A stretch of DNA of 48,239 bases from Actinomycetes bacterium (lineage in GTDB: Bacteria; Actinomycetota; Actinomycetes; S36-B12), in the NCBI GenBank assembly GCA_024641635.1, contig JAHECS010000002.1:133839-182077 (forward strand). Reading direction: 5' to 3'. Both the position numbers and the translations under genes were made by a program. The notes beneath the pieces were generated by a model, which made no database searches, had not been told where the DNA came from, and saw only the letters and a list, made by a program, of their open reading frames with translations. This document shows, piece by piece, positions 13,189 to 31,966 of the stretch (position 1 is the stretch's first letter; each line of letters starts with the position of its first letter).

Positions 13189-13204
13189 CGTTCGTATCCG
13201 AACG
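13189..13204. promoter_or_regulatory. Palindromic operator copy B
   Basis: CGTTCGTATCCGAACG. With its flanks it is a perfect 22-base palindrome at 13186-13207 (9-base arms, spacer TATC). It ends 20 bases before the ATG of the ADC-family gene, so a bound repressor would cover that promoter. Confidence 0.75.
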
Positions 13205-13226
13205 AAACTCGCTAGGGTGCTCCCCC

Positions 13227-17572: not shown

Positions 17573-17609
17573 GGGGCTCCCTCGTGAGGTGGGTGGGTTT
17601 CGCTGAAAT

Positions 17610-17625
17610 CGTTCGGACCCCAACG
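17610..17625. promoter_or_regulatory. Palindromic operator copy C
   Basis: CGTTCGGACCCCAACG, extended by AAAT and ATTT flanks into an inverted repeat with 8-base perfect arms at 17606-17613 and 17622-17629. It lies between the divergent GS-like gene (starts at 17572) and the amidotransferase gene (starts at 17698) and could control both. Confidence 0.75.
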
Positions 17626-17697
17626 ATTTTGTGGATACTAGGCGCTCATCGAGTGTTCGGGGACCAGTTTCCCCACAAATCCGGCCCGAGGTGACAG

Positions 17698-18488: not shown

Positions 18489-19733
18489 TCAGGCCTGCTT
18501 CACCGGCAGGCGCTTGAAGCCGTGCACGAAGTTCGAGCGCACGTAGTCGGGAGTGCCGTTCGGGGCGAGCGTCACGCCGCGCGCCAGGAACTCCTCGAAC
18601 ATGATCTGGATCTCGAGCCGGGCGAGGGCGTTGCCCAGGCACATGTGCGGGCCGCCGCGGCCGAACGACATGTGCTCGTTCGGCTTGCGGGTGACGTCGA
18701 ACCGGTAGGGATCCTCGAAGACCTCGTCGTCCCGGTTGCCCGAGCCGAACCAGACGACCACCTTGTCGCCCGCCTTGATCTCCTCGCCCCGCATGATGAC
18801 GTCGCGCGTCGCCGTGCGGCGGAAGTGGTGCACCGGGCTCGCCATCCGCAGGAACTCCTCGACGGCCCAGGGAATGAGATCAGGCTGCTCGGTGAGCAGT
18901 GCCTGGGCATCCGGGTTGGCCATCAGGTTGTTCATCGTGTGAGTGATCGTGTGCCGGGTCGTCTCGTTCCCCGCGATCACCAGGAGCAGGAAGTAGTTGC
19001 GGAAGTCACGGGCATCGATCGGGATGCCGTCCGACGGAGGCGTGTTGAGGACGATCGACACGAGGTCGGTGCCGTCGCCACCCTTCCGGTTCCAGGCGAG
19101 CTCGTACCCGTACTTGAACACCTCGAGTGCAGCGGGCGAGCGGAAGGGCAGGTCCCGGTACTGCTCGCTCTCGGGGCTGCCGGAGATGACGTCGGCGTGC
19201 TCGGGGTCGGTGTTGCCGACCATGCGGTTGCCCCATTTGATGAGCTGCGGGATGTCCGACTCGGGCACGTCGAGCAGCTGGGCCAGCACGCGGATCGGGA
19301 AGTCCGCTGCCACGTCTGCCACGAAGTCGAACTCGTTCTTGGCAAGCGCCTTGTCCAGGGTCGAGGCGGTGATCCCGCGGAGGAAGGTCTCGTAGCCGGC
19401 GATCGCGCGAGGGGAGAACTGCGGCTGCAGCATCTTGCGCAGCGCACGATGGCGCGTCCCGTCGGTCTCGAGGATGGACCGGCGGATCTCCATCTGCCGG
19501 GTGTCCAGCTCCTCGAGGTTCGCGGTGCCGAGCTGGCTCGAGAAGACGTCCGTGTTGCGGAGCACGTCCACGATGTCGTGGTACCGGGTGATCGACCAGA
19601 AGCCGGCATTGGGCTCGGGCTCGATGTTCCAGTGGACGGGGTTCTCCCGGCGCAGGTCCTCGAACACCTGCCACGGGGCGCCGTTCTCGAACAGGTCGAG
19701 GTCGGCGAGGGTGACGTCGGTCGTGGTACTCAT
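18489..19733 (-). CDS. Cytochrome P450, module II
   Basis: A 414-residue soluble P450 with all standard motifs: AGNETT at 254-259, EFLR at 293-296 and haem Cys365 in FGRGGPHMCLGNALARLE. It looks related to the module I P450 at 9473 (similar AGNETTR and TATRD segments), unlike the atypical one at 14979. The ATG has GGAGGACGC upstream. The gene is monocistronic and divergent from the MarR regulator; operator copy D lies 34-49 bases upstream of its start. A hydroxylation, dealkylation or O-demethylation on the imported amine or its glutamyl adduct is plausible, because no flavin amine oxidase of the PuuB type is present. The actual reaction is unknown. Confidence 0.92.
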   Translation of the reverse strand: MSTTTDVTLADLDLFENGAPWQVFEDLRRENPVHWNIEPEPNAGFWSITRYHDIVDVLRNTDVFSSQLGTANLEELDTRQMEIRRSILETDGTRHRALRKMLQPQFSPRAIAGYETFLRGITASTLDKALAKNEFDFVADVAADFPIRVLAQLLDVPESDIPQLIKWGNRMVGNTDPEHADVISGSPESEQYRDLPFRSPAALEVFKYGYELAWNRKGGDGTDLVSIVLNTPPSDGIPIDARDFRNYFLLLVIAGNETTRHTITHTMNNLMANPDAQALLTEQPDLIPWAVEEFLRMASPVHHFRRTATRDVIMRGEEIKAGDKVVVWFGSGNRDDEVFEDPYRFDVTRKPNEHMSFGRGGPHMCLGNALARLEIQIMFEEFLARGVTLAPNGTPDYVRSNFVHGFKRLPVKQA

Positions 19734-19766
19734 GCGTCCTCCGGGTCGGCAAGGGAGCCCTCAGAT

Positions 19767-19782
19767 CGTTCGGGCCCAAACT
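19767..19782. promoter_or_regulatory. Palindromic operator copy D
   Basis: CGTTCGGGCCCAAACT, flanked by AGAT and ATCT, which extends the dyad. It lies upstream of the P450 gene (minus strand, start 19733). It is the weakest right half-site of the six. Confidence 0.65.
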
Positions 19783-19844
19783 ATCTGGCCGACTGTAGCC
19801 TCCCGCTCCCCGGTTCGCGCAACCTTTCCCGGACTTTTCGCGTA

Positions 19845-19860
19845 TGTTCGCCCCCGAACG
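19845..19860. promoter_or_regulatory. Palindromic operator copy E
   Basis: TGTTCGCCCCCGAACG, with GTTCG/CGAAC arms. It ends 17 bases before the ATG of the MarR gene, the classic position for autorepression. Confidence 0.7.
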
Positions 19861-19877
19861 ACCCACGAGGGAGACGC

Positions 19878-20381
19878 ATGGCTGGACCGCACACGCTGGC
19901 GGAGACGGAGAACGCCGTGCGAACGCGGCTGTCCGGCCTGACCCTCGACTACGAGGCCATGGCGGTGGCCTCCAACCTCTTCCGCGCCGCGAATGCCGTC
20001 CGCAACCACCTCGAGCGCACCGTCCTTCACCCGCACGACCTGACGTGGACGGCCTTCGTGGTCCTCTGGGTCACCTGGATCTGGGAGCCCGTCGAGACGC
20101 GCGTCATCGCCGAGGAGGGCGGATTCTCCAAGGCCACGCTGTCGGGGGTGCTCGCGACGCTCGAGGGGCGAGAGCTCGTCACCCGGGAGCGCAGCACGAC
20201 GGACGGCCGACTCGTCCTGGTGCGTCTGACGCCGGCGGGACGGCGGCTGATGAAGCGGCTCTTCCCCGAGTTCAACGAGCAGGAGAGAGCCGTCGTGTCA
20301 GGGCTCCCCAAGGAGCAGCTGCCCGAGGCGGCCCAGATGCTCCGATCCATGGCGACCTCCGCGTCCGGCGAGGACACGTGA
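19878..20381 (+). CDS. MarR-family transcriptional regulator
   Basis: A 167-residue winged-helix regulator. The order is helical dimerisation segment (AMAVASNLFRAANAVRNHLE), the HTH (VIAEEGGFSKATLSGVLATLEGRELV), the wing (RERSTTDGRLVLVRLTPAGRRLM) and a C-terminal dimer helix. MarR proteins usually repress and are released by small aromatic ligands. The start ATG follows GAGGGAGACGC. Six copies of a 16-bp palindrome surround genes from 13 to 21 kb, one of them just before this gene; it is the only regulator in that stretch, so it is the best candidate for the binding protein. The effector is probably an aromatic pathway intermediate. Site assignment is inferred, family is clear. Confidence 0.9.
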   Translation: MAGPHTLAETENAVRTRLSGLTLDYEAMAVASNLFRAANAVRNHLERTVLHPHDLTWTAFVVLWVTWIWEPVETRVIAEEGGFSKATLSGVLATLEGRELVTRERSTTDGRLVLVRLTPAGRRLMKRLFPEFNEQERAVVSGLPKEQLPEAAQMLRSMATSASGEDT

Positions 20382-20397: not shown

Positions 20398-21129
20398 CTA
20401 GCGCTCTGCAGCGCTCTCGGCGACGAACCGCGTCATCAGTTGCCGCTGCCGAGGGTCGGTCGTCCAGGTGTCCTCGGGATGCCACTGCACTCCGACGGTC
20501 CATGCCGGCGCTTCGACGACGACGGCCTCCACCGTCCCGTCCTCGGCCGTGGCCACGACGCGCATGCCCTCACCGAGTCGCTCGATCGCCTGGTGGTGGT
20601 AGCAGGAGATGCGGACGGCGGCGGATTCGATGCCCAGGGGCGAGGCCTCGTCGTCGAGGGAGACGTCCTGGACGGTGTGCCGGTGGTGCTCGGGCATGTC
20701 GACCACGAGGGTCCCCCCTCGGACGACGTTCACGACGTGCATCCCCCGGCACACGGCAAGAGTCGGCATGCCGCTGTCCAGGCAGTAGGCGGTCAACGAG
20801 AGGTCCGCCTCGTCCTGGACGGCGTCGACGTCGTACACGGACTCGTGCTCGTGGTCACCGCCGTAGTGCCGAGGATCCAGATCCCCGCCGCCGGCGAGCA
20901 GGACGCCGTCGATCCCCGCCAGTCGGGACGACCAGTCCAGGGCGCCCTCTCCGGTCGCAGGGAGCAGGGTGACGGGGTCTCCTCCTGCCGCCCAGACCAG
21001 CTCGAGGAGCGCGCGGGACGACACCACCCCGCGGTAGCGCAGGGCGCTCGCTGACTCCGTGTACCGGCCCAGCAGCGCGATCCGCGGACGACGGGACCCA
21101 CCGGATGCCCCACCAGACGTCGGCGCCAT
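20398..21129 (-). CDS. Peptidase C26 / gamma-glutamyl-gamma-aminobutyrate hydrolase (PuuD-like)
   Basis: A 243-residue class I amidotransferase-fold hydrolase of the C26 family. The nucleophile is Cys127 in LAVCRGMHVVNV, with His217 and Glu219 in VQWHPED; GVLLAGGGDLDPRHYG is the typical upstream block. PuuD releases GABA from gamma-Glu-GABA; here the likely job is to release an acid or amine from a gamma-glutamylated intermediate. It differs from the two AtdA2-like amidotransferases, so three separate deglutamylating enzymes exist in one locus. The ATG at 21129 follows GGAGGATCC. It is divergent from hpaE, with operator copy F between them, and convergent with the MarR gene, whose stop is only 16 bases away. 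Confidence 0.88.
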   Translation of the reverse strand: MAPTSGGASGGSRRPRIALLGRYTESASALRYRGVVSSRALLELVWAAGGDPVTLLPATGEGALDWSSRLAGIDGVLLAGGGDLDPRHYGGDHEHESVYDVDAVQDEADLSLTAYCLDSGMPTLAVCRGMHVVNVVRGGTLVVDMPEHHRHTVQDVSLDDEASPLGIESAAVRISCYHHQAIERLGEGMRVVATAEDGTVEAVVVEAPAWTVGVQWHPEDTWTTDPRQRQLMTRFVAESAAER

Positions 21130-21177
21130 GGATCCTCCAAAACTGTTGGCCAAGGGGATGACGTGCGGCACAATATC

Positions 21178-21193
21178 CGTTAGGGTCCGAACG
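21178..21193. promoter_or_regulatory. Palindromic operator copy F
   Basis: CGTTAGGGTCCGAACG. It lies between the PuuD-like gene (start 21129, minus) and hpaE (start 21270, plus) and could control both, including the whole eight-gene hpa operon. Confidence 0.7.
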
Positions 21194-21269
21194 AATCTAG
21201 GACCACCTACGGCACAGTGGGCAACCCGCCCATTGTGCCGCGTCCATATCACCGACGGGAAGGCTGCCC

Positions 21270-22736
21270 ATGTCCCTCGCCGAGGTCGCCGGCGTGCAGG
21301 TGGACACGCGCCACTGGATCGGCGGGCAGCGGGTGTCGTCGCCCGAGACGTTCGCCACGGTGAGCCCCATCGACGGCACCGAGCTCGCCCAGGTCGCCCG
21401 CGGGGGCAAGACCGAGGCGGATGCCGCCGTGGCAGCCGCCCGCGCCGCATTCCCCGCATGGGCCGCGCTCAGCCCCCAGGAGCGCGGGGCGATCCTGCAC
21501 AGGGTCGCGGACAACGTCGAGTCGCACATCGAGGAGCTGTCGCAGCTCGAGACGGCCGACAACGGCTCGCTGCTGCGCTCCCACCGTCGGGGCGTCATGC
21601 CCCGAGTCGTCACCAACCTGCGCTTCTTCGCCGACTACGCCATCAACGAGCTCCACCACCCGGTGTTCGAGACCCGCGGTCACGACAACCATGTGTCATG
21701 GGACCCGTCGGGCGTGGCCGTCATCATCACGCCCTGGAACGCGCCCCTCATGCTCGCCACGTGGCGCATCGGCCCGGCCCTCGCCTCCGGCGACACCGTC
21801 GTGGCCAAGCCACCGGAGTGGGCCCCCCTGACCGCCTCCCTCTTCGCCCAGCTGGCGCACGAGGCCGGGCTCCCGGCCGGCGTGTTCAACGTCGTGCAGG
21901 GCTTCGGCACGGAAGCGGGAGCGGCACTCACGGCGAATCCGGGCATCTCCCGGATCTGCTTCACCGGCTCGGTCCCCACCGCCAAGGTCATCGCCCACGC
22001 TGCCGCCGACAACCTCATCCCCTGCTCGTTCGAGCTCGGCGGCAAGAGCCCGACCGTGATCCTCGACGACGCGGACCTGGACCTCGCCGTGGACCTCGCC
22101 GTCGAGCAGTACGACAACGCCGGACAGGTCTGCCTCGCCGGGACCCGCCTCCTGGTGCAGGAGGGAATCGCGGACGAGTTCACCGCGCGGTTCGCCGAGC
22201 GCGCCGCGCAGATCCGGCAGGGCGATCCCCGCGACGAGGAGACCCAGATCGGGCCGAACATCCACCTCAAGCACGTCGAGCGCGTCGAGGGCTTCATCGA
22301 TCGCGCGAGGGCCGACGGCGCGACGGTGGCCTACGGCGGGGAGAGGAACACGGACCTGGGTCCGCACTACTTCAGGCCCACGCTGATCGTCGACGCCCCT
22401 GCGGGCAGCGAGATCCTGACCCAGGAGGTCTTCGGTCCCGTCCTCACGATGCAGACGTTCGCCTCCGACGACGAGGGGCTCGCCCTCGCGAACGGCACCG
22501 AGTTCGGGCTCGCTGCCTGCGTGGTGACCGGCAGCCGCGAACGCGCCGAGGCCTTCACCAAGCACCTCGTCGCAGGCACGATCTGGGTCAACTGCTTCTT
22601 CGTGCGCGACCTCGCGGCTCCCTTCGGCGGGTCGAAGCGCTCCGGCATCGGTCGGGAGGGCGGCCTCTGGTCGTTCGACTTCTACGCAGACGTCAAGAAC
22701 ACCGTGTACGCGCCGAACGGCTGGACGAAGGAGTAA
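21270..22736 (+). CDS. hpaE: 5-carboxymethyl-2-hydroxymuconate semialdehyde dehydrogenase
   Basis: A 488-residue aldehyde dehydrogenase with Asn157 (TPWNAP), Glu255 (FELGGKSPT) and Cys288 (GQVCLAGTR). The C-terminal WVNCFFVRDLAAPFGGSKRSGIGREGG is the signature I associate with HpaE and related muconate-semialdehyde dehydrogenases. Its reaction oxidises the ring-fission product of homoprotocatechuate to the tricarboxylate. The neighbouring ring-cleavage dioxygenase and isomerase/decarboxylase strongly support this. GGGAAGG precedes the ATG. First gene of an eight-gene operon with gaps of 22 bases or fewer, under operator copy F. Cytosolic. Confidence 0.87.
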   Translation: MSLAEVAGVQVDTRHWIGGQRVSSPETFATVSPIDGTELAQVARGGKTEADAAVAAARAAFPAWAALSPQERGAILHRVADNVESHIEELSQLETADNGSLLRSHRRGVMPRVVTNLRFFADYAINELHHPVFETRGHDNHVSWDPSGVAVIITPWNAPLMLATWRIGPALASGDTVVAKPPEWAPLTASLFAQLAHEAGLPAGVFNVVQGFGTEAGAALTANPGISRICFTGSVPTAKVIAHAAADNLIPCSFELGGKSPTVILDDADLDLAVDLAVEQYDNAGQVCLAGTRLLVQEGIADEFTARFAERAAQIRQGDPRDEETQIGPNIHLKHVERVEGFIDRARADGATVAYGGERNTDLGPHYFRPTLIVDAPAGSEILTQEVFGPVLTMQTFASDDEGLALANGTEFGLAACVVTGSRERAEAFTKHLVAGTIWVNCFFVRDLAAPFGGSKRSGIGREGGLWSFDFYADVKNTVYAPNGWTKE

Positions 22737-22740
22737 CGCC

Positions 22741-23637
22741 ATGGGTGAGGTTGTCGGAGCGGGCCTGCTGTCGCACGTGCCCACGATCATGCTCCCGAAG
22801 GAGACGCGGCTGGAGCTGAACGAGGGCAAGGAGATCTCCCTCGTCCCCGCTCTGGAGCGGATCCGCGCGGAGAAGTTCGAGACCCTCGACTACGACACGG
22901 TGATCGTCCTGGACTCGCACTGGTTCACGACCGTGGAGTTCGTCGTCACCTCGCAGAAGCGTCGCGCCGGGCTGTTCACCGCAGAGGAACTGCCCCGCGG
23001 GATGTGCCGGATCCCCTACGAGTGGCGCGGCGACCCCGAGCTGGCCGAGGCGATCGCCGCCCAGGCCGAGTCGCACGGCACCTGGATCACCCCCATCGAC
23101 GACGAGTACCTGCCGCTGTACTACCCGTCGGTCAACATCTGGAGCTACCTCGGCAAGGGGCTCGACAAGCAGTGGATCTCGATGAGCGTCTGCCAGACCG
23201 GCGAGACGGACGACTTCCTGAGGGTCGGGAGGGCGATCGGCGAGGCGATCCGGGAGACCGACCGCAAGGTCATCATCGTTGCCACCGGTTCCATGTCGCA
23301 CACGTTCTACAAGCTCAAGGAGCTGCGCAAGCACGAGGCCAGCGACCCGTCGCACATCATCACGCAGAAGGCCCGCGACATGGACCACGAGCGACTGCAG
23401 TGGTTCTTCGAGGGGCGCCACGACCGGGTCCTGGAGACCATGCCGGAGTTCATGACCGTGCGGCCCGAGGGGATGTTCGCCCACTACCTGATGATGGCCG
23501 GCGCCCTGGGCGAGATGGACTTCGCGGCACCCGGCGTCCAGTACGGCGACTACGAGAACTCGATCGGCACGAGCCAGGTGCACGTGTGGTTCGACCGCCC
23601 CCAGAACGGCTGGACTCGCACAGGAGCTGCCGCATGA
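22741..23637 (+). CDS. hpaD: 3,4-dihydroxyphenylacetate 2,3-dioxygenase (class III extradiol)
   Basis: A 298-residue extradiol dioxygenase of the LigB/HpaD superfamily, which opens the ring of homoprotocatechuate next to the hydroxyls using Fe(II). The N-terminus GAGLLSHVPTIML carries the metal-ligand histidine; YDTVIVLDSHWFTTVEFVV provides the second, and ATGSMSHTFYKLKEL and the Glu-rich C-terminus follow as in E. coli HpaD. AAGGAG lies before the ATG. It is followed with a 4-base ATGA overlap by the isomerase/decarboxylase. No hpaBC hydroxylase is present in the window, so the catechol must come from elsewhere, possibly from P450 chemistry or from a substrate that is already a catechol. Confidence 0.88.
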   Translation: MGEVVGAGLLSHVPTIMLPKETRLELNEGKEISLVPALERIRAEKFETLDYDTVIVLDSHWFTTVEFVVTSQKRRAGLFTAEELPRGMCRIPYEWRGDPELAEAIAAQAESHGTWITPIDDEYLPLYYPSVNIWSYLGKGLDKQWISMSVCQTGETDDFLRVGRAIGEAIRETDRKVIIVATGSMSHTFYKLKELRKHEASDPSHIITQKARDMDHERLQWFFEGRHDRVLETMPEFMTVRPEGMFAHYLMMAGALGEMDFAAPGVQYGDYENSIGTSQVHVWFDRPQNGWTRTGAAA

Positions 23638-24509
23638 CCGAGTACCGAAGGATCCTGCTCGAGGGCGCTCCCGCCCTCACCGAACGGCACGGCGACGAGC
23701 TGGTAGCTCGCGACGGCCGCGTCGTCGGCATCGAGGACGCCGTCCACCTGCCGCCCTGCGAGCCGACGAAGATCATCGCGGTGCACCTGAACTACGACTC
23801 GCGCACGCAGGAGTTCATGACGAAGCTCCCGCCCGCACCCACCTACTTCAGCAAGCCGGTCACGGCGCTCAACTCGCACAGGGGTGCCGTCGTGCGCCCC
23901 GACCGATGCAAGTGGCTGAACTACGAGGGCGAGATCGTCATCGTCATCGGACGGACCTGCCGGAACGTCTCCCCCGAGGAGGCGGGCGACTACATCGCGG
24001 GCTACACCGTGGGCAACGACTACGGCCTGCATGACTTCCGCGACACCGATGCCGGCTCGATGCTCCGGGTCAAGGGCTCGGACACCCTCGCCCCGATCGG
24101 CCCGGGTCTCGTGACGGACTGGGACTTCCGCGACAAGCGCATCCAGACCCGCGTCAACGGCGAGGTGAAGCAGGACTCCACCACGGGTGAGATGGAGTGG
24201 GACATGCACTACCTCGTCGCCGACATCGCGCGCACGATCACGCTCGTCCCCGGCGACATCCTGTTCTCGGGGACGCCGGCCAACTCCCGAACCGTGTACC
24301 CCGGCGACGTCGTCGAGGTGGAGGTCGAGGGGCTCGGCACGCTGAGCAACACCATCGTGCAGGGACCGACACCCATCCGCGAGGATGTCGGCGCCCAGCC
24401 CTCCGAGAGCGAGGAGGTCGTCTCCACCGCGAAGGGCGGCGACTGGGAGTTCCGCGGGATCCGCACGCCATCCAAGGACCTGTACCCGTCAACGATTGAG
24501 GAGAAGTGA
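23634..24509 (+). CDS. FAH-family isomerase/decarboxylase (HpaG-like)
   Basis: A 291-residue fumarylacetoacetate-hydrolase-fold protein. The metal site is seen in YEGEIVIVIG, and GYTVGNDYGLHDFRDTDAGSMLRVKGSD and DILFSGTPANSRTVYPGDVVEVEVEGLG are family blocks. In the homoprotocatechuate path HpaG decarboxylates 5-oxopent-3-ene-1,2,5-tricarboxylate and isomerises the product to 2-oxohept-3-enedioate. Only one FAH domain is present, whereas E. coli HpaG is a tandem fusion, so one of the two activities may be encoded elsewhere. No hydratase (HpaH) or aldolase (HpaI) gene follows here. Start overlaps hpaD stop (ATGA); stop overlaps the ferredoxin start (TGATG). Confidence 0.82.
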   Translation: MTEYRRILLEGAPALTERHGDELVARDGRVVGIEDAVHLPPCEPTKIIAVHLNYDSRTQEFMTKLPPAPTYFSKPVTALNSHRGAVVRPDRCKWLNYEGEIVIVIGRTCRNVSPEEAGDYIAGYTVGNDYGLHDFRDTDAGSMLRVKGSDTLAPIGPGLVTDWDFRDKRIQTRVNGEVKQDSTTGEMEWDMHYLVADIARTITLVPGDILFSGTPANSRTVYPGDVVEVEVEGLGTLSNTIVQGPTPIREDVGAQPSESEEVVSTAKGGDWEFRGIRTPSKDLYPSTIEEK

Positions 24510-24700
24510 TGACTGTCAAGGTCTTCGTCGACATGGACAAGTGCCAGCACTACGGACAGTGCTGCTTCGAGGCCGACGACATCTTCCACCTGGACGATGA
24601 CGGCAAGCTCCAGTACGTGGCCGAGGCTGACGACAGTCGCCGGGACGACATCGAGAGCGCGGCTGACGTCTGCCCCATGCAGGCGATCACCGTCGAGTAG
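24509..24700 (+). CDS. 3Fe-4S ferredoxin, P450 electron donor type
   Basis: A 63-residue ferredoxin with three cluster cysteines in a C-x5-C-xn-C-P layout: Cys in DKCQHYGQC, then CPMQAI near the C-terminus; the extra Cys in QCCFEA is adjacent to the second. This is the single-cluster 3Fe-4S type that feeds soluble actinobacterial P450s. The reductase gene follows nine bases later, so together they should deliver electrons from NAD(P)H to the three P450s of the locus. A GAGGAG site lies upstream; ATG at 24509 overlaps the preceding stop. Being in the hpa operon, the redox pair is made only when ring cleavage is induced. Confidence 0.9.
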   Translation: MTVKVFVDMDKCQHYGQCCFEADDIFHLDDDGKLQYVAEADDSRRDDIESAADVCPMQAITVE

Positions 24701-24709
24701 GCGCTGCAG

Positions 24710-25894
24710 ATGAGTGGTGTGGTGATCGTCGGCGCAGGCCTGGGCGGGCTGCGGTCGGCCGAGGCGCTTCGAGGCGCCGGATACGAGGGTGAGATCACCG
24801 TCGTCGGCGACGAGCCGCACCTGCCCTACAACCGGCCTCCGCTGTCCAAGGAAGCACTGCTCAGCGGCGTCGACGTGGAGGGGCTGCAGTTCCGCCGCAA
24901 GGCGACCGTGGAGGACGTCATCTGGCGACTGGGCGCACCGGCGGCGTCCTCCGACCTGTCAGCGCGCACCGTCACGCTCGAGGACGGCAGCGTCCTGGAG
25001 TTCGACGGCCTGGTGATCGCCTCCGGCATCCGCCCCCGGCGACTGCCGATCCCCGGCCCGACCACGGGGCGCTCCGTCCTGCGGACCGCGACCGACGCCG
25101 AGCACGTCAGGGCCCTGCTCGGACCCGGAGTCCACGTCATCATCATGGGCGCCGGCTTCATCGGCTGCGAGACGGCTGCCACCGCGCGCAAGCTGGGTGC
25201 CGAGGTCGCCGTGGTGGCCATCGACGAGCAGCCCATGGTGCGACCGCTCGGGGCCGAGCTCGGGGCCGGCATGCGTCGGCGGCACGAGCGGCATGGGGTG
25301 CACTTCCACCTCGGGCACACGATCGACGCGTTCGTCGGAGACGATCGGGTCCGGTCGGCGGCATTGAGCGACGGATCAGAGCTCCCTGCCGACATCGTCA
25401 TCGAGGCCGTCGGCTCGGTGACCAACACCGAATGGCTGCAGGGCAACGGCCTCGACCTGTCCGACGGACTGCTGGTCGACAGCGCGATGCAGGTGGATAC
25501 CGAAGTCGCCCCCGTCGTCGCCGTGGGCGACATCGCGCGTCACCCCAACGCCCTCTTCGGGGACATCCCCCGGAGGATCGAGCACTGGAACATGCCCACC
25601 GAGACGGGGCGGCGGGCCGGAGCCACGCTCGCAGCCCTGCTGGCCGGCGCCGAGCCGGATCGCGGCCCCTTCACCGCGATGCCCTCGTTCTGGTCCGACC
25701 AGTACGACCACAAGCTCCAGTCCTTCGGGATGCCCGGCATCGCCGATCGCATCGAGCTCGTCGAGGGTGAGCCGGACGGCCCCTGCATCGTCGAGTACCA
25801 CGACGCCAGCGGTCTCGTCGGCGTCGTCGGGGTCGATCGCACGCAGGAACTTGCCCCGTACCGGAAGCAGCTCATGACACGCTCAGCCTCGTGA
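24710..25894 (+). CDS. FAD-dependent ferredoxin reductase
   Basis: A 394-residue pyridine-nucleotide-disulfide-type reductase. The FAD-binding GxGxxG is in VVIVGAGLGGLRSAEALR, the NAD(P) fold in HVIIMGAGFIGCETAATARKLG, and the FAD-closing motif in VVAVGDIARHPN; PYNRPPLSKE is typical of the putidaredoxin/rubredoxin reductase family. It takes electrons from NADH or NADPH to the adjacent 3Fe-4S ferredoxin. A C-terminal reductase domain (FWSDQYDHKLQSFG) completes it. Its stop overlaps the GTG of the PLP decarboxylase by four bases (GTGA), so redox partner and decarboxylase are translationally coupled. Confidence 0.9.
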   Translation: MSGVVIVGAGLGGLRSAEALRGAGYEGEITVVGDEPHLPYNRPPLSKEALLSGVDVEGLQFRRKATVEDVIWRLGAPAASSDLSARTVTLEDGSVLEFDGLVIASGIRPRRLPIPGPTTGRSVLRTATDAEHVRALLGPGVHVIIMGAGFIGCETAATARKLGAEVAVVAIDEQPMVRPLGAELGAGMRRRHERHGVHFHLGHTIDAFVGDDRVRSAALSDGSELPADIVIEAVGSVTNTEWLQGNGLDLSDGLLVDSAMQVDTEVAPVVAVGDIARHPNALFGDIPRRIEHWNMPTETGRRAGATLAALLAGAEPDRGPFTAMPSFWSDQYDHKLQSFGMPGIADRIELVEGEPDGPCIVEYHDASGLVGVVGVDRTQELAPYRKQLMTRSAS

Positions 25895-27300
25895 CCCGTC
25901 CTCTGTCCCTCGGCGACCAGCGCGACGCGGCTCTCCGACACGCGGCGGACATCGTCGCGCACGCCTGGCGCGAGTTCGACCAGGCTCGCGAGGAGGTGGC
26001 CCCGTCACCTGAGCTCCTGGCACGCCTGCGCGAGCGTCTTCCCGAGCAGCCCGGAGACGTCATCGAGGATCTCGACCTGGCCTCGGACGTGCTGGACGCG
26101 TCGCTGGCGCAGTCGCGACCGCGCTACTTCGCCTACATCGGTTCCAGCGGGCTGGAGGTCGGCGCGCTGGCGGACCTGCTCGCGCACTCCTACGACATCA
26201 ACCTCGCCCTCGACGCCGGAGCCGCCACCCAGCTCGAGCGCCAGGCGATCGAATGGCTGGCCCAGTTCCTGGGCTTCCCGGCCGCCACAGGGTCGTTCAC
26301 CAGCGGCGGCACGATCAGCAACATCACCGCCCTGGCGGCTGCGCGGGAGCGAGCCCTGCCCGGCAGCCGGTCGACGGGAATGGCCAACCGTCGCGCTGCC
26401 CTGTACTGCTCGGCCGAGGCGCACTACTCGGTGACCCGTGCGGCGGAGCTCCTGGGGATCGGTCGGGACAACGTGCGCGACATCGCCATCGACGCGCGGC
26501 GGCGGATGGACCCCTCGGACCTGGCCGCTCGCATCGATGCCGACCTCGCCGCCGGAATCACTCCCATCGCGGTCGTCGCCACCGGGGGCACGACGCTCAC
26601 CGGTGCCGTCGACCCGCTCGACGCCATCGCCGACGTGTGCCAGGAGCGCGGGGTGTGGCTGCACGTCGACGGGGCGTACGGACTGCCCGCGGCCGCCGCG
26701 CCCACGAGCGCTCCCCGCTTCAGGGGCCTCGATCGCGTCGACTCCTTGAGCGTGGACGCGCACAAGTGGATGTTCGTGCCCAAGGCGTGCAGCGCGGTCC
26801 TGGTGCGGCGCACAGCCGACCTTGCCGCCGTCTTCTCGCACGACGAGGACTACATCCCGCACGAGGACGACGAGCTCAACGCCGTCGACGTCACCCTCGA
26901 GTACAGCCGACCACTGCGCGCTCTCAAGCTGTGGCTCGCGATGCGCGTGCATGGAGCGCAGGCGTTCCGTGCCGCTGTCGAGGCCAATCTCGCGCAGGCG
27001 CAGCTCCTGTACGGGTTGGCCTCGGCCCACCCCGACTTCCAGACCCGCGAGCACGAGCCGCAGCTGTCGATCGTCCCGATCCGACACGTCGTCGCCGGCT
27101 GCCCCGACATCGACCGGCACAACGAGGAGCTGTGTCGCGCGATGCAGAGGGACGGCCGTGTCTACATCTCGCCCGCGGTGATCGACGGGCGCACCTGGTT
27201 GCGTCCCTGCTTCACGAATTTCCGGACGACGACCGACGACGTGCACACCACCCTTGCCGTCGCTGCGGAGCTGGGCAGCACCATCTGCTCCGCTCACTGA
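25891..27300 (+). CDS. PLP-dependent group II decarboxylase
   Basis: A 469-residue fold-type I PLP enzyme of the group II (aromatic amino acid / glutamate / diaminobutyrate) decarboxylase family. His178 in AEAHYS should stack on PLP, Asp260 in HVDGAYG binds the pyridine nitrogen, and Lys292 in SVDAHKW forms the Schiff base; GSFTSGGTISNITAL binds phosphate. It would convert an amino acid to its amine and CO2, or carry out an amine-oxidising variant reaction such as that of arylacetaldehyde synthases, which use the same scaffold and O2. In an operon for arylacetate degradation either activity would make sense. The GTG start overlaps the reductase stop. Substrate unknown. Confidence 0.85.
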   Translation: MTRPLSLGDQRDAALRHAADIVAHAWREFDQAREEVAPSPELLARLRERLPEQPGDVIEDLDLASDVLDASLAQSRPRYFAYIGSSGLEVGALADLLAHSYDINLALDAGAATQLERQAIEWLAQFLGFPAATGSFTSGGTISNITALAAARERALPGSRSTGMANRRAALYCSAEAHYSVTRAAELLGIGRDNVRDIAIDARRRMDPSDLAARIDADLAAGITPIAVVATGGTTLTGAVDPLDAIADVCQERGVWLHVDGAYGLPAAAAPTSAPRFRGLDRVDSLSVDAHKWMFVPKACSAVLVRRTADLAAVFSHDEDYIPHEDDELNAVDVTLEYSRPLRALKLWLAMRVHGAQAFRAAVEANLAQAQLLYGLASAHPDFQTREHEPQLSIVPIRHVVAGCPDIDRHNEELCRAMQRDGRVYISPAVIDGRTWLRPCFTNFRTTTDDVHTTLAVAAELGSTICSAH

Positions 27301-27322
27301 GGCGATTGGCTACTCTCGCGAT

Positions 27323-28870
27323 ATGGCTGACGCCGCACACCCGGGAGTAGAGGGCGTGGCGTTCCCTGAGGGCGGGGACGGGCGACGCAGCACGAGTGCC
27401 ACGGGCCGCGCCATCTTCGCGGACTGCATCCGTGCCGTCGATCCGGCGATCGCGGCGAGGATCGAGCACACCTCCGACTGGCGCGGCGGCTACATCGGTC
27501 CGCTGCGAGACATCTCCCTTGCCTCCGCGCTGTCGGCCGCCGCCGCACTCAGCGTCTCCCGGGACGGCCTCGAATCGGCGCACCGCCGGTTCGTCTTCGC
27601 GCGCGACGGCGAGCAGCAGCTGCTGTGGGAGGCGATGCGACGGTACGACCGTCCGAGCTTCGGCTCCGTGACGGTCAAGGGTGCCGTGCCGCCCGAGACC
27701 GAGTTGACCCTGCCGTATCGCGGGCGCCGACTCTTCGGGGACGACCTGCGGCGCCAGATCGACCAGTGGGTGGCGTCAGGCGTCGCCGAGCCTGGTCTGG
27801 CCGACGCGATCACCCTCGTGCTCGACAACCCTGACTGGCTGGACCTGACCGACGTCGACATCGCCGTCCTCGGCGCTGGTGCCGAACTCGGTCCCACGCG
27901 CTCGCTCCTGCGGTGGGGTGCCCGCGTCCATGCGGTCGACCTGCCCCGCCCCGATCTGTGGCAGCGGCTCATCGAGACGACGCGCAACACCGCCGGCTCC
28001 TTGCGGCTCCCGATCCAACTGGATGATTCCGGCAACCCCCCGTTCGTCGTGGGCGGGGTCGTGCATCCGGACGACGACTCCACCGTGGCTGCCGCGGCGG
28101 GTGCCGACCTGCTTCGACGAACCCCCGAGCTCCTCAGCTGGCTCACCGAGATCGAGCAGCCGTTCGTCCTCGGCACCTACGCCTACGCCGACGGTGCCGC
28201 TCACGTGCTGCTGTCGATGGCCGCCGACTCCCTCGTCACGGAGCTGCTGACGCGACGCGACGACGTCACCCTCGCCTACCTCGCCACCCCGACCGATGTC
28301 TTCATGGTCCCGCTGGACGCGGTCGAGGAGTCTCGACGTCGCTGGGAGTCGCGCGGGTTGAGCGGCCTGCTGCAGAGTCCCCTGCGCCTGATGAAACAGT
28401 TCGAGCCCAACTACTCGCGTACCTACACCGCCGATGACGGAACCGTCTTCGGCATCAACGACTCCCTCGTCCCCCAGCAGGGGCCGAACTACGCGCTCGC
28501 GAAGCGCCTGCAGCGCTGGCGCGCGCTCGTGGCCCGCGCCGACGGCGTGCCGGTGTCCTTGAACCTCGCCCCGGCGACTCGCACCCACTCCGTGGTGAAG
28601 AACAGGGCGCTCGCAGCGGCCTACGCCGGGGCCGGGCGATTCGGGGTCGAGGTGTTCGACCCGGCGACGTCCACCACCTTGATGGCCGCGCTGCTCGTGC
28701 ACGACCTCCGCAATCCCGCCGCTGCCGCCAACCCCGCGACGCCATTGGCGAACCCCATGGACCTGTTCGCGCAGGCCGCGAACCATGGCGGACTGTGGCG
28801 GGCGGCATACGCCCCGCGAAGCGTGCTGGGAGTTGCCGCGCTCCTGGGCATGTTCGAGTCCCGCGCCTGA
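27323..28870 (+). CDS. Conserved protein of unknown function, Rossmann-like segment
   Basis: A 515-residue soluble protein that I cannot assign to a reaction. No signal peptide or membrane helix is evident. A glycine-rich turn, IAVLGAGAELGPTRSLLRWGA (GAGAELG at 184-190), followed by VHAVDLPRPDLWQRL, looks like a nucleotide-binding Rossmann unit with an acidic residue ending strand 2. Other notable segments are LPYRGRRLFGDDLRRQIDQW (about 130-149) and a C-terminus with SLNLAPATRTHSVVKNRALAAAY. The reading frame is intact and codon use matches the neighbours. It sits 22 bases after the PLP decarboxylase and 5 bases before the TPP enzyme in the hpa operon, so it very likely has a pathway role. 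An NAD(P)- or SAM-dependent function is a guess. Confidence 0.75.
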   Translation: MADAAHPGVEGVAFPEGGDGRRSTSATGRAIFADCIRAVDPAIAARIEHTSDWRGGYIGPLRDISLASALSAAAALSVSRDGLESAHRRFVFARDGEQQLLWEAMRRYDRPSFGSVTVKGAVPPETELTLPYRGRRLFGDDLRRQIDQWVASGVAEPGLADAITLVLDNPDWLDLTDVDIAVLGAGAELGPTRSLLRWGARVHAVDLPRPDLWQRLIETTRNTAGSLRLPIQLDDSGNPPFVVGGVVHPDDDSTVAAAAGADLLRRTPELLSWLTEIEQPFVLGTYAYADGAAHVLLSMAADSLVTELLTRRDDVTLAYLATPTDVFMVPLDAVEESRRRWESRGLSGLLQSPLRLMKQFEPNYSRTYTADDGTVFGINDSLVPQQGPNYALAKRLQRWRALVARADGVPVSLNLAPATRTHSVVKNRALAAAYAGAGRFGVEVFDPATSTTLMAALLVHDLRNPAAAANPATPLANPMDLFAQAANHGGLWRAAYAPRSVLGVAALLGMFESRA

Positions 28871-28875
28871 CCCGG

Positions 28876-30519
28876 ATGAGCGCGAACCCGTCCGTCGCCG
28901 CCGCGATCCTCGAATTGCTGGGGCGTCACGGCGTCACCCGTGCCTTCGGCATCCCGGGGGTCCACAACCTGCCGTTCTGGGACGCCGACCTCGAGTCCGG
29001 CCCCCGCATCATCGGCGTGCGCCACGAGCAGGCGGCCGGCTACGCAGCAGATGGCCTGCACCGGGCAACGGGCGACGTGTCCGCCACCCTCCTGACGAGC
29101 GGGCCGGGCGCCGCCAACGTGGTGGCCGCCTTCGGGGAGGCGTACGTCAGCGGCTCGCCGGTCATCGTCCTCGCCAGCGAGGTGGGCCAGTCGCTGCGCT
29201 CGCCGGGAGGGCCACGCGGCATCCTGCACGAGATGGCCGACCAGGGCGCGATGTTCGAGGCGTTCGGAGCGACGGCCCGGCGTGCACGCACGAGGCAGGA
29301 GGCGATCGCGTCGACCGTGCTGGCCCTCCGAGACGCCTGGGGGCCTCCGGCCGCAGGCAGCTACGTCGGCATTCCGTCGGATGTGCTCGGCGAGGAGTGG
29401 ACCGCGGCGATCCCGCACATACCCAGGCTGCCGTCGCCTGCGGCGGACCCCAGCCTCGTCACCGACCTGGCAGAGCTGATCCGCATGTCGTCACGCGTCG
29501 TGCTGTGGCTCGGCGGGGGGGTCGTCTCCGCGGGCGCCGAGGAGGCCGCTCGCGCCCTGGCCCACCGACTCGGCGCACCCGTGCTGACGTCGTATGCGGG
29601 CCGGGGTCTTCTCGCCGGGGACCCCCTGCTCGTGGACGCGCCGGTTCACGAGCCCGAGGTCGGTGCCCTTCTGCCCGACGCTGATCTGCTTCTCGTGCTG
29701 GGTTCGTCCTTCGACGGCATGAACACGAAGAACTGGCGCCTGCCCCTGCCAGATCGGCGAGCCGCGATCACGCTCGGGTCCGTGGTCCGGGAGACCATCG
29801 ACTGGGACTGCCTCATCCAGTCCGACGTCGGCGACGCTCTGGGCGCACTCGACGAGCTCCTCGAGGACATGGGGGTGACGGCGCGCGAGCCGTGGGTGGA
29901 CGTGACTCCCATCCGGCGCGACATCCTCCAGAGGCTGGCGGCGGACTCCCGAACCGCTCCGGCGATCGCGTGGGTCAATGAGATTGATGCATGCTGGCCG
30001 GCCGGATCGGCGGTCGTCTGCGACATGGCGGTGGGCGCCTACTGGTACGGCGGGTACAGCTCCCAGCCCCGCCCCCGCCGACTCCAGTACCCGGTCGGCT
30101 GGGGCACCCTCGGCTACGCGCTACCCGCGTCTATCGGTCCTGCGTCTGTGGGCATCCCGACGCTCGCCGTCTGCGGTGACGGTGGGCCGATGTTCGCGCT
30201 CGGCGAGCTGGCCACGCTGGCGCAGGAGTCGCTGCCGGTCACGCTTCTCGTCGTCGACGACGGTGGCTACGGGATGCTCCGCTTCGACCAGCAGGTGTTC
30301 GGTCATCCGGAGCGCGGGGTCGACCTGCTCACCCCTGAGTGGCGGAGCCTTGGGCTCGCCTTCGGCATCGCCACCGAGACCGTGCCGGATCTCGGGGCAC
30401 TGGGCGACGCCCTCGGCCGGGCACACGAGGCGAACCTCAGAGGGGAGCCGAGGATCGTGGTCTGGCACGAACGGCTCTTCCCACCGCGGACGACGTCACC
30501 CCGGTGGTTCGAGTCCTGA
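28876..30519 (+). CDS. Thiamine-diphosphate-dependent enzyme (acetolactate synthase/decarboxylase family)
   Basis: A 547-residue ThDP enzyme with the three expected domains. The N-terminal PYR domain has the cofactor-activating Glu51 in VRHEQAAGYAADG; the central domain includes LWLGGGVVSAGAEEAARALA; the C-terminal PP domain carries GDGGPMFALGELATL and then VVDDGGYGMLRF. The metal-binding motif usually ends in an asparagine pair, but here it reads Asp-Asp. Relatives include acetolactate synthase and 2-keto-acid decarboxylases such as the guanidino-oxopentanoate enzyme. A keto-acid decarboxylase or carboligase acting on an aryl or aminoaldehyde intermediate is possible. Last gene of the hpa operon; ATG at 28876 follows the unknown gene by five bases. 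Confidence 0.83.
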   Translation: MSANPSVAAAILELLGRHGVTRAFGIPGVHNLPFWDADLESGPRIIGVRHEQAAGYAADGLHRATGDVSATLLTSGPGAANVVAAFGEAYVSGSPVIVLASEVGQSLRSPGGPRGILHEMADQGAMFEAFGATARRARTRQEAIASTVLALRDAWGPPAAGSYVGIPSDVLGEEWTAAIPHIPRLPSPAADPSLVTDLAELIRMSSRVVLWLGGGVVSAGAEEAARALAHRLGAPVLTSYAGRGLLAGDPLLVDAPVHEPEVGALLPDADLLLVLGSSFDGMNTKNWRLPLPDRRAAITLGSVVRETIDWDCLIQSDVGDALGALDELLEDMGVTAREPWVDVTPIRRDILQRLAADSRTAPAIAWVNEIDACWPAGSAVVCDMAVGAYWYGGYSSQPRPRRLQYPVGWGTLGYALPASIGPASVGIPTLAVCGDGGPMFALGELATLAQESLPVTLLVVDDGGYGMLRFDQQVFGHPERGVDLLTPEWRSLGLAFGIATETVPDLGALGDALGRAHEANLRGEPRIVVWHERLFPPRTTSPRWFES

Positions 30520-30593: not shown

Positions 30594-31319
30594 TCAGGGG
30601 ATGAAGCCGGAGTCGAGTGACCAGGGGGCGATCGGCGAGTTCATGATCACCCAGGCCTGGATGTCCTTGTCGAACCCGGTGATGATGACGACTCCCACGA
30701 TGATGAACACGACCCCAAGGCCCCGACGGAACCACCCGTGCGGGTCGGCCGCCCATCGCGCGTTGCCGATGAACCGCTGCCCGAGCAGGGCGATCAGCAG
30801 CAGCGTGGCGCACAGACCGACGACGTACCCGAGCAGGAGCAGCATCCCCTGCGCGAAGGAGGCCGGCAGCACGGTGACGATCACATAGCCGTACATCGGG
30901 CTGCACGACGAGAAGACCGGCCCGAGCGCAGCACCGGTGAGGACCGCGCCCGTCATCCCCTCACGCTGGCGTGCCGAAGCGAGCCGCGTCGACGTACGAC
31001 TCTGCAGGCTGAGTCGGGCGGAGACCCAGTCCCAGATCCCCGGGAAGGCGGAGACGATGCCCAGGGCGATGAGGATGCCACCGCTGATCCACTGCCAGAC
31101 GCTGCTGGGGATGCCGATCAGGGCGGTACTGGCCTTCAGGATCAGGGTGAAGGCGACGATCGACAGTCCAAGCGACGCGGTGATCACGTACGCCCGCCGA
31201 CGGGCCTGCTGCGACGACGGCCCGAGCGAGCCGCCGACGATCACGGGGAGCATCGGCAGCACGCACGGGGCGAGCGTGGTGAGCACCCCGGCGACGACGG
31301 CGCCGAGGAACAGCAGCAT
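30594..31319 (-). CDS. Cytochrome c biogenesis / thiol-transport protein CcdA-like
   Basis: A 241-residue polytopic membrane protein of the CcdA/DsbD-beta family, which passes reducing equivalents from cytosolic thioredoxin to extracytoplasmic thiol proteins. The family Cys pair positions are visible as LTTLAPCVLPMLP in the first helix and LGPVFSSCSPMYGYV in the fourth. About six to seven hydrophobic helices follow the usual layout. The ATG at 31319 shares a base with the stop of the upstream thioredoxin-like lipoprotein gene (TGATG), so the two form a membrane reductase/effector pair. Ends 74 bases from the convergent TPP gene. Whether it serves cytochrome c maturation or another thiol protein is not shown. 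Confidence 0.85.
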   Translation of the reverse strand: MLLFLGAVVAGVLTTLAPCVLPMLPVIVGGSLGPSSQQARRRAYVITASLGLSIVAFTLILKASTALIGIPSSVWQWISGGILIALGIVSAFPGIWDWVSARLSLQSRTSTRLASARQREGMTGAVLTGAALGPVFSSCSPMYGYVIVTVLPASFAQGMLLLLGYVVGLCATLLLIALLGQRFIGNARWAADPHGWFRRGLGVVFIIVGVVIITGFDKDIQAWVIMNSPIAPWSLDSGFIP

Positions 31320-31921
31320 CAGACGGTCTGCCCGGCGATCTCGTCTGCCGTCGACGAACCGGTCCACTTCGCCAGCTCGTTGCCTGCGGCGTCGATCTGA
31401 ACGAAGGAATGCTGCGTGGTGATCCCGTACTTCTGCTTGAGCTCATCCGAGTCGTCGTAGTCGACCTTGACGATGGTCAGGCCCGCGGGGATCGCCGCCG
31501 GGTCGCCCTCGAGGTTCTTCTGGGTCTCCTGACAGGTCGGGCACCACGAGGCGTTGAAGAACAGGACGACGTCGCCCGCCGCGTCGTACATGTCCTTGCC
31601 GGACTCGTAGTCCGCCAGGCTGATGTAGGCGCCGGCGTCGGACATCATCGCGTCGTCGGACGCGGTCATCTCGTCCGATGATCCCTCGTCGGAGGCCATG
31701 TCGTCAGAGTGACCCTCGGTCTCCTCTGACATCGCCTCGTCGGACGCCATCTCGTCGGACGCCATCTCATCGGAGGCCATGGCGGACGCCTCGACCATGG
31801 CGGACTCCGCGGCCGGCTCGGCGGAACCGTCCGCCGTCGTGGAACCGCAGGCGGTCAGCACCAGGGCGGTCGCCGCCAGCGGAAGTGCGAAACGGGCAAT
31901 GAAGGAGCGTGAGTTCGTCAT
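31319..31921 (-). CDS. Thioredoxin-like lipoprotein with acidic MASDE repeats
   Basis: A 200-residue exported lipoprotein. A signal peptide ends in the lipobox LTAC with acylated Cys25. Residues 30-96 form a low-complexity acidic linker rich in Met, Ala, Ser, Asp and Glu, with MASDE repeated. The C-terminal half is a thioredoxin-like domain: VVLFFNASWCPTCQETQK with active-site Cys127 and Cys130, then TIVKVDYDDSDELKQKYGI and SFVQIDAAGNELAKWTG. It should act at the outer face of the membrane as a thiol oxidoreductase, taking electrons from the CcdA-like protein encoded next. ATG at 31921 is chosen over one 18 bases upstream because it starts the signal peptide. Divergent from the two-component system. 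Confidence 0.85.
   Translation of the reverse strand: MTNSRSFIARFALPLAATALVLTACGSTTADGSAEPAAESAMVEASAMASDEMASDEMASDEAMSEETEGHSDDMASDEGSSDEMTASDDAMMSDAGAYISLADYESGKDMYDAAGDVVLFFNASWCPTCQETQKNLEGDPAAIPAGLTIVKVDYDDSDELKQKYGITTQHSFVQIDAAGNELAKWTGSSTADEIAGQTV
31737..31781. repeat. 15-bp tandem repeat in lipoprotein linker
   Basis: Three 15-base units (31737-31751, 31752-31766, 31767-31781) encode successive MASDE blocks on the minus strand. The first two are identical and the third has two changes. The unit is in frame, so copy-number changes would alter only linker length. Confidence 0.85.
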
Positions 31922-31966
31922 GCATCCATGACAGCGCACCGGTAGCGACGAGAACAGCGAGAACCC

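Follow-up and report, generated by a model that had tools for sequence, protein, structure and literature searches.

A 48,239-nucleotide stretch of contig JAHECS010000002.1 from an Actinomycetes bacterium (assembly GCA_024641635.1; 3.06 Mb in 82 contigs, 96.88% complete), hereafter the window, contains at 21270-30519 a run of eight genes that begins with three relatives of the homoprotocatechuate (Hpa) ring-cleavage enzymes. It is well supported that this run is one arm of a larger conserved module, in which Hpa-like ring cleavage is mixed with amine masking resembling that of the E. coli gamma-glutamylputrescine (Puu) pathway, and the existence of the module and its common control are very likely. 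From gene content, conservation, family relations, residues and the operator, from which the reactions, their order and the substrate are deduced, the regulon probably serves the complete catabolism of an arylethylamine (tyramine or dopamine, possibly O-methylated) whose amine would be masked as a gamma-glutamyl amide. Tyramine, dopamine or methoxytyramine as the natural substrates is a somewhat less secure proposal. The chances are about even that the module represents an undescribed aromatic catabolism, in which glutamate would act as a protecting group through ring cleavage until the release of gamma-aminobutyrate (GABA) and a single enzyme of the acetoacetate decarboxylase (ADC) superfamily would replace both hydratase and aldolase.

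A conserved module around the ring-cleavage genes

The eight open reading frames (ORFs) of the run lie on the forward strand, are all strongly biased towards GC at the third codon position, and follow one another at +4, -4, -1, +9, -4, +22 and +5 bases, with no overlap or gap above 22 bases. ORF calls, GC bias and hidden Markov model (HMM) families thus bear out the place and order given in the first-pass annotation. The first gene of this cleavage operon encodes an HpaE-like aldehyde dehydrogenase (21270-22736; best NCBIfam family HpaE), followed by a LigB-type (class III) extradiol dioxygenase (22741-23637; Pfam LigB and HpaD_Fe) and an HpaG-like member of the fumarylacetoacetate hydrolase (FAAH) family (23634-24509; HpaG-C-term), the proposed decarboxylase/isomerase. 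Next come a Fer4_15-type single-cluster ferredoxin (24509-24700; Pfam), likely the P450 partner, and a ferredoxin reductase (24710-25894; Pyr_redox_2 and Reductase_C). The run ends with three accessory genes, which encode a pyridoxal phosphate (PLP) group II decarboxylase (25891-27300; HMM and PDB matches), a protein without a Pfam or NCBIfam match (27323-28870) and a thiamine pyrophosphate (TPP) enzyme with TPP_enzyme N, M and C domains (28876-30519).

The partners of this run lie within ~19 kb upstream. They comprise a putative PuuD-like peptidase-C26 gamma-glutamyl hydrolase (20398-21129, reverse strand; Peptidase_C26), a MarR-type regulator (19878-20381, forward), a cytochrome P450 with an operator upstream (18489-19733, reverse; Pfam p450), a class-I glutamine-amidotransferase-like protein (17698-18405, forward; Pfam GATase) and a putative glutamine-synthetase-like gamma-glutamyl ligase (16220-17572, reverse; Gln-synt_C, with the ATG placed from the translation). 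Farther out are an F420-type LLM oxidoreductase (14039-14974, forward; TIGR03619 at 175.2 bits, above the cut-off of 166.9), the ADC-superfamily enzyme, a proposed hydratase/retro-aldolase (13227-14036, forward; Pfam ADC), an amino-acid/amine permease (11458-13029, reverse; AA_permease, ATG at 13029) and, farthest, a PuuC-like aldehyde dehydrogenase (2536-4014, reverse), which has no operator and is linked by homology. The Pfam scan covered window ORFs up to 43521, with the LLM gene assigned by NCBIfam only; the regulator is named from its matches to MarR-annotated genes in loci L049 and L050, not from a Pfam scan of its own frame. Searches for tRNAs, Rfam families and viral contigs found nothing.

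A scan of GTDB genomes returned at least 597 matches to two patterns, at least 593 of them relatives, which is not a gene count; the best 80 of the 593 were kept, leaning to near relatives, and recurrence was tallied at a gene identity of at least 40% in the 48 of those 80 loci that span at least 17 kb each. LigB is present in all 48, FAAH and the HpaE-like dehydrogenase in 47 each, the ligase and the ADC enzyme in 46 each, the MarR regulator in 42 and the P450 in 41. These are followed by the C26 hydrolase (36), ferredoxin (35), reductase (34), permease (26), PuuC-like dehydrogenase (23), amidotransferase (22) and F420 oxidoreductase (16). Because of this recurrence, the ligase, the P450 system, the ADC enzyme, the HpaE-like dehydrogenase, LigB and FAAH are taken as the core. 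The protein without a family match (4 of 48), the PLP decarboxylase (2) and the TPP enzyme (1) are accessories, found mostly in close relatives.

LigB homologues with 61-88% identity occur in 20 other genomes (21 of the 296 sampled from the class, its own included). The nearest named relatives are metagenome-assembled genomes labelled Actinomycetales, Actinomycetota and Candidatus Nanopelagicales, and the isolate names of several suggest lakes. Members of the same clade (58-64% identity) are found on Streptomyces, Embleya and Novosphingobium plasmids. The Novosphingobium plasmid bears the module set minus the C26 gene, and the plasmids of Novosphingobium and S. canus hold the core with no pathway named in their annotation. 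In two loci, L125 and L115 (Streptomyces toyocaensis and S. marokkonensis), the fetched stretch carries the module but nothing that matches the P450; these hosts may use only ready-made catechols or may encode the P450 elsewhere. A replacement hydroxylase was sought among 10 ORFs from five of the seven P450-less loci, short of a full survey, and none was found.

The accessory genes show a patchier pattern. S. lunaelactis and Nonomuraea soli have a relative of the PLP decarboxylase (32-35% identity) next to FAAH, and tblastn matches to the TPP enzyme are confined to L029, L064, L068 and L069; other TPP enzymes lie near the module in L105 (27%) and L109 (by Pfam). The protein at 27323-28870 (~515 amino acids) has no Pfam or NCBIfam match at E 0.001, and its predicted fold (mean pLDDT 70.7) has no PDB match at E <0.001. 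It has 12 near-full-length homologues in the fetched loci, and its family is kept in close relatives, sometimes with the TPP enzyme behind it. DsbD- and thioredoxin-like genes adjoin the window's TPP gene (30594-31939) and also occur near the module in L036 (6817-8400), a contig of a different family, at 53-62% identity.

Two further gene groups lie among or beyond the upstream partners. A short P450 of 389 amino acids (14979-16148) follows the ADC and LLM genes and has relatives near the module in 5 of the 48 loci of at least 17 kb. At 6349-11406, a second glutamine-synthetase-like/amidotransferase pair is arranged divergently to genes for a zinc alcohol dehydrogenase, a P450 and an MDMPI-domain protein. 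This pair (6349-8394) was rejected as a regulon member, as the 8394-8475 gap holds no operator, and for the same reason it may represent a separate gamma-glutamylation route.

A shared operator palindrome

The palindrome TCGTTCGGnnCCGAACGA precedes divergent promoters of the module. Inverted repeats were sought in three gaps, which yielded two palindromes sharing a sequence, and the pattern derived from them (at most three mismatches) matched three window sites and none in 100 shuffles. Operator sites lie upstream of the permease ATG (13063-13082), upstream of the ADC gene (13187-13206), between the ligase and amidotransferase genes (17608-17627), between the P450 and MarR genes (19765-19784), with a second, weaker site before the MarR gene (19843-19862; 13 of 16 positions), and between the C26 and HpaE-like genes (21176-21195; 14 of 16). 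Six window sites reach at least 13/16, against 0.5 expected from 20 Markov resamples. Genome-wide, seven sites carry at most two mismatches, and five of these, including all three with a single mismatch, fall in the cluster; at up to three mismatches there are 27 sites versus five for a reversed control pattern. Two further operator-like sites occur in the genome (C11 and C38), where ORF lists only were used and no gene is tied to them.

The operator is also found in related loci. A set of 34 loci, with one duplicate pair (L031/L055) included, holds 175 sites at 12/16, against 67.8 expected. The wider count covers 86 of 105 stretches, with 14 shorter than 12 kb and five duplicates set aside and L053 left out, and is divided by our own list into 48 non-streptomycete-type and 38 streptomycete-type loci. 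The 48, which include the window itself, one Embleya and one Novosphingobium plasmid, and which were scored with a consensus derived from the window's own sites, hold 143 sites at 13/16, of which 129 lie no more than 250 bases upstream of core genes. Permuted half-site palindromes (up to 200) gave means of 7.6 in total and 0.6 upstream of core genes, with maxima of 38 and 15.

In these non-streptomycete-type loci, a 12/16 site stands upstream of the ligase gene in 37 of 37 cases, the amidotransferase in 32 of 36, the HpaE-like gene in 37 of 45, the regulator in 32 of 40, the P450 in 31 of 39, the ADC gene in 24 of 33, the C26 gene in 23 of 33 and the permease in 14 of 22. Genes that are mostly internal to operons are seldom preceded by one (LigB 2/48, FAAH 3/47, ferredoxin 3/37). 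Where genes have been relocated (L057, L063, L068 and L069), a site stands before the ferredoxin gene, which suggests that the control extends to the redox partners and the genes downstream of them. Conserved neighbourhood and shared operator together uphold the earlier suggestion that the redox partners, the P450 and ring cleavage belong together. The sites of S. lunaelactis resemble a TTTG..CAAA variant. The regulon is probably MarR-controlled, with the MarR protein presumably binding the operator; HpaR of the Hpa pathway is likewise a MarR-type regulator.

A candidate masked-amine pathway

In the Hpa route, a catechol with a CH2COOH side chain is cleaved beside that side chain, and the product is oxidised, decarboxylated, hydrated and split into pyruvate and succinic semialdehyde. 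By carbon count, HPA-type cleavage of a catechol with a CH2CH2NH-gamma-Glu side chain leads to pyruvate and gamma-glutamyl-4-aminobutanal, the PuuC substrate. If this side chain is assumed, nearly all conserved genes gain a step, and the presence of Puu-like and Hpa-like genes in one regulon without HpaH and HpaI would be explained. The permease would import the amine or an amino acid, from which the PLP decarboxylase, where present, would form the amine. The glutamine-synthetase-like ligase would convert the amine to a gamma-glutamyl-arylethylamine, whose ring the P450, with ferredoxin and reductase, would hydroxylate or O-demethylate to a catechol. LigB would then open the ring beside the side chain, with the mask preventing the amine from cyclising onto the new aldehyde. 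The HpaE-like enzyme would oxidise the semialdehyde, and FAAH would isomerise and decarboxylate the product. The ADC enzyme is proposed to hydrate and retro-aldol-cleave the resulting 2-oxo-enoate to pyruvate and gamma-glutamyl-4-aminobutanal, replacing HpaH and HpaI. Finally, the PuuC-like dehydrogenase would yield gamma-glutamyl-GABA, and the PuuD-like hydrolase GABA and glutamate. The genome encodes a GABA aminotransferase scoring above its family cut-off.

The ligase retains recognisable glutamine synthetase catalytic motifs, while the equivalents of the ammonium-site Asp50 and the flap Glu327 are missing in all 78 aligned sequences (five of them duplicates). The Asp column holds Cys in 72 and Ser in 6, and the Glu column Leu in 65, Met in 11, Ala in 1 and Thr in 1. 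E. coli PuuA likewise lacks both residues, and both are kept by L148, a glutamine synthetase encoded in the same genome. The passages of PMC6529630 on this enzyme type recognise a gamma-glutamylamine ligase by the loss of the Asp50 and Glu327 marks and a change at Tyr179; our comparison covered the first two of these, and by them the protein has the glutamine synthetase fold without the ammonium site. We infer from these residues that it is a gamma-glutamylamine ligase of the PuuA/GlnA4 kind. The Streptomyces GlnA4 ethanolamine pathway, as far as it is set out in those passages of PMC6529630, shares with the module a ligase without ammonium-binding residues, an aldehyde dehydrogenase, an amidotransferase and an actinobacterial host; it differs in acting on a small aliphatic amine and in having no dioxygenase, P450 or ADC-superfamily gene there.

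The LigB dioxygenase scores 88 bits to Pfam LigB, and its residues H12, H60, H187 and E243 are invariant across 25 sequences, which places it in the class III LigB enzymes; H12, H60 and E243 are presumably the metal ligands. In a Foldseek search, its predicted model (mean pLDDT 84.1) finds 8iq8, a DHPA dioxygenase, as the top PDB entry (E 2.7e-21), followed by 2-aminophenol dioxygenases. A comparison of the LigB clade with five HpaD proteins yielded differential residues that could not be interpreted in terms of substrate choice. The PLP decarboxylase perhaps converts an aromatic amino acid to an arylethylamine. Its nearest PDB entry is DOPA decarboxylase (7xin, 199.3 bits), only just ahead of a desferrioxamine-type enzyme (5o5c, 199.0 bits), and to this extent the suggestion in the first-pass annotation that an arylethylamine is the likely substrate is borne out.

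The Q-G-Y-P-K-K motif of the ADC protein, which we take to hold the active-site (Schiff-base) lysine, is present in all 82 sequences compared, duplicates included. The nearest PDB entry is MppR (4jm3, 167 bits), followed by 6eej and 4zbo at 152 bits each, the latter presumably a pyruvate aldolase-dehydratase. The MppR equivalog TIGR04460 is the sole NCBIfam match at E 1e-20. The protein thus shares sequence and the active-site lysine motif with MppR and the ADC-superfamily 2-keto acid enzymes; it differs from them in reaching only 194.9 of the 380 bits set as the MppR model cut-off. Among the statements on this enzyme family, PMC7820114 describes MppR as a pyruvate aldolase and its relatives as proposed for a phenol meta-pathway in Saccharolobus, and PMC10367076 attributes an active-site lysine and 2-keto-acid chemistry to MppR in its account of the enzyme.

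The proposed final steps rest on two Puu-like proteins. NCBIfam PuuC is the top family of the 2536-4014 dehydrogenase (528.8 bits, the next at 452.2, with an equivalog cut-off of 850), and an E. coli PuuC query finds it first (47% identity, 429 bits), with the other two window aldehyde dehydrogenases at 300 and 289 bits. The C26 protein carries C127, H217 and E219 in 65 of 65 sequences, duplicates included, and is the sole window match to E. coli PuuD (68 bits). Among its PDB matches Lin1909 leads and PuuD (6vtv) is fifth; it has no NCBIfam match at E 1e-20. Next to the C26 gene of S. canus and of S. lunaelactis stands an aldehyde dehydrogenase gene of top family PuuC, and the only family match of the C26 protein is PuuD: the two Streptomyces dehydrogenases score 568 and 554 bits (cut-off 850), and the two hydrolases 83 and 92 bits, below the 266 bits of the PuuD equivalog PRK11366. 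The amidotransferase holds C97, H175 and E177 in 46 of 46 sequences, again with duplicates counted.

The module thus resembles E. coli Puu in its glutamine-synthetase-like ligase, PuuC-like dehydrogenase, PuuD-like hydrolase and permease (PuuP match weak, 41 bits), and differs from it in placing an aromatic ring-opening sequence between ligase and hydrolase. The PuuB oxidase has no match among 28 window proteins at E 1e-5. The ligase, the ADC enzyme, the PuuC/PuuD-like genes and the shared operator, all missed by the first-pass annotation, point to a glutamyl-masked amine route.

Alternative substrates and routes

The name homoprotocatechuate operon, under which the run was first described, is correct only in part: its HpaE-, LigB- and FAAH-like genes are members of a wider module and score below Hpa cut-offs. 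HpaE is the top family of the first aldehyde dehydrogenase at 505.6 bits (cut-off 638), and an E. coli HpaE query ranks it first at 311 bits, ahead of the other two window aldehyde dehydrogenases at 294 and 291. FAAH scores 194.4 of 276 bits to HpaG-C-term and is found by an E. coli HpaG query at 145 bits; LigB scores 128.3 bits to HpaD_Fe, below the 315.95 bits of the HpaD equivalog TIGR02298, and a Kitasatospora homologue 122.4. The absence of hpaBC, hpaH and hpaI, also remarked on earlier, stands genome-wide for HpaB, as HpaB_N (PF11794) has no match in the assembly, and among scanned window genes for the HpaH hydratase and HpaI aldolase. The genome has six FAA-hydrolase matches, one of which, outside the operon, is a DmpE-like hydratase. 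Of its two PF03328 (HpaI-type) matches, the stronger is CitE-like and lies elsewhere, and the other is weak (24.5 bits). A plain Hpa operon was rejected on the missed cut-offs and the unmatched HpaB, and the eight genes as a self-contained unit because conservation and the operator take in upstream genes.

A diverged Hpa pathway is unlikely. In it, loss of the amine would come first, LigB would act on homoprotocatechuate as its true substrate, and the ligase and hydrolase would have their role in nitrogen metabolism. Such a pathway would account for HpaE, HpaD_Fe and HpaG being the best or nearly best families and for a DHPA dioxygenase as the nearest solved fold, and the module does resemble Hpa (hpaGEDFHI) in having a MarR-type regulator and a single operon that encodes a LigB dioxygenase, an HpaE-like dehydrogenase and an HpaG-like FAAH. 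It departs from Hpa, however, in several ways: HpaB is unmatched in the genome, the operon shows none of HpaF, HpaH and HpaI, the three homologues score below the curated cut-offs, and a P450, ligase, ADC enzyme and C26 hydrolase are added under one operator. No amine oxidase is found among those recurrent families that were examined, and PuuB is unmatched in the 28 window proteins. LigB is 26-30% identical to the HpaD-annotated plasmid matches (among the matches listed, 20 of 41), versus 58-88% within its own clade, which tells against homoprotocatechuate, the substrate first proposed. Five HpaD loci examined for comparison contain additional FAAH or hpaH genes and show neither a ligase nor an ADC gene within flanks of 3-6 kb; in the module, ligase and ADC genes are nearly always linked and share the operator. 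An intermediate LigB from Sphingobium (32% identity) lies on the TomTYG64 plasmid (L053, 7567-16410) with genes annotated as HpaE, FAAH, hydratase, aldolase and 2-dehydropantoate reductase, perhaps another variant meta pathway.

Aniline pathways contain a glutamine-synthetase-like ligase and a class-I amidotransferase, and the same pairing here would suit a gamma-glutamylanilide route, in which an arylamine is handled by these two and hydroxylated by the P450, with an aminophenol or catechol as the compound that LigB cleaves. The 2-aminophenol 1,6-dioxygenases, the next PDB relatives of LigB, are in keeping with it. This route is nevertheless very improbable: a second dioxygenase subunit and an aminomuconate deaminase are not among the scanned window ORFs (no genome-wide search was made), the dehydrogenase scores 506 bits to HpaE versus 439 to 2-hydroxymuconic-semialdehyde dehydrogenase, FAAH matches HpaG and not DmpH among the families listed, and the PuuC/PuuD-like genes and PLP decarboxylase would be left unexplained. 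In aniline pathways of the tdn type, a glutamylating ligase starts aromatic amine breakdown; from these the module differs in its proposed P450 oxygenase, a mask proposed to be kept through ring cleavage and HpaD/E/G-like ring opening, and no Rieske domain, as an aniline-type dioxygenase next to ligase and amidotransferase would show, occurs in the scanned window ORFs. The same likeness and differences apply to 1-naphthylamine, for which PMC11335346 reports that gamma-glutamylation by a ligase starts breakdown.

Masked-amine logic applied to another amine (benzylamine, 2-hydroxyphenethylamine, N-methylated tyramine or a plant alkaloid fragment) is a further possibility of low probability. A two-carbon side chain is the better fit to the decarboxylase, whose nearest solved relative is DOPA decarboxylase, and to the GABA-type enzymes at the end of the route. 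In 20 of the 86 loci, the surroundings of the core include VanA/B-like, PurU, FolD or GcvT-like genes (PurU 10, VanB 7, VanA 6, FolD 4, GcvT 2), which makes methylated substrates likely in some hosts and a methoxylated amine a fair alternative substrate; O-demethylation, raised in the first-pass annotation, is accordingly plausible. Some of these VanA/B-like or C1-folate genes sit outside the core, and the Novosphingobium VanA match is only 40%. VanA/VanB-like Rieske O-demethylase genes lie in or beside the module in L029 (same genus), L038, L046 and L067.

Several points weigh against arylethylamine catabolism through a gamma-glutamyl mask under one operator. The substrate was chosen from the PLP decarboxylase and the carbon count. 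Beyond close relatives this decarboxylase is seldom found, and the NCBIfam family it matches best is diaminobutyrate decarboxylase, far below cut-off (191 of 900 bits). The PuuC-like dehydrogenase is present in only 23 of 48 loci and lies here 17 kb away without an operator, a third window aldehyde dehydrogenase (354-1985) also matches HpaE best (461 bits), with HpaE preferring 21270-22736 only narrowly, seven of the 48 loci lack the P450, and the C26 protein resembles PuuD only weakly (68 bits). With a DmpE-like hydratase encoded elsewhere in the genome, the ADC enzyme does not have to stand in for HpaH; the aldolase search covered the PF03328 family. The LLM oxidoreductase and the second amidotransferase are without a certain step. 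At lower thresholds, the operator shows no clear excess in the window (8 sites versus 5.85 expected at 12/16, and 30 versus 40.25 at 11/16). It seldom precedes the LLM (3/24) or PuuC-like (1/8) gene, and its signal is weaker in the 38 streptomycete-type loci (at 12/16, ligase 22/37, ferredoxin 16/27, HpaE-like 8/37).

No description of the module was found in a full-text literature search, mostly outside the reach of which lie subscription journals. The module genes of S. lunaelactis (L050, pSLUN1, 4591-14340) correspond to Lun33-Lun39 of biosynthetic gene cluster 28a (lunaemycins); in the gene assignments of PMC9866976, the permease, ligase, ADC, C26 and dehydrogenase genes among these are given as of unknown function and the MarR gene as regulation. 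PMC11672506 mentions genes for a ligase, an ADC protein and a C26 protein close to a lanthipeptide cluster of Embleya, perhaps a locus of the same type. If the masked-amine reading is true, it would explain a conserved gene set that is annotated piecemeal as 3,4-dihydroxyphenylacetate dioxygenase, catechol 1,2-dioxygenase, glutamine synthetase family and acetoacetate decarboxylase family. It would assign a testable reaction to nearly every core enzyme and predict GABA from aromatic amine breakdown, and the operator could be used to find further regulon members. The module would then represent a widespread biogenic-amine route in aquatic and soil actinobacteria, carried also on plasmids and in Novosphingobium.

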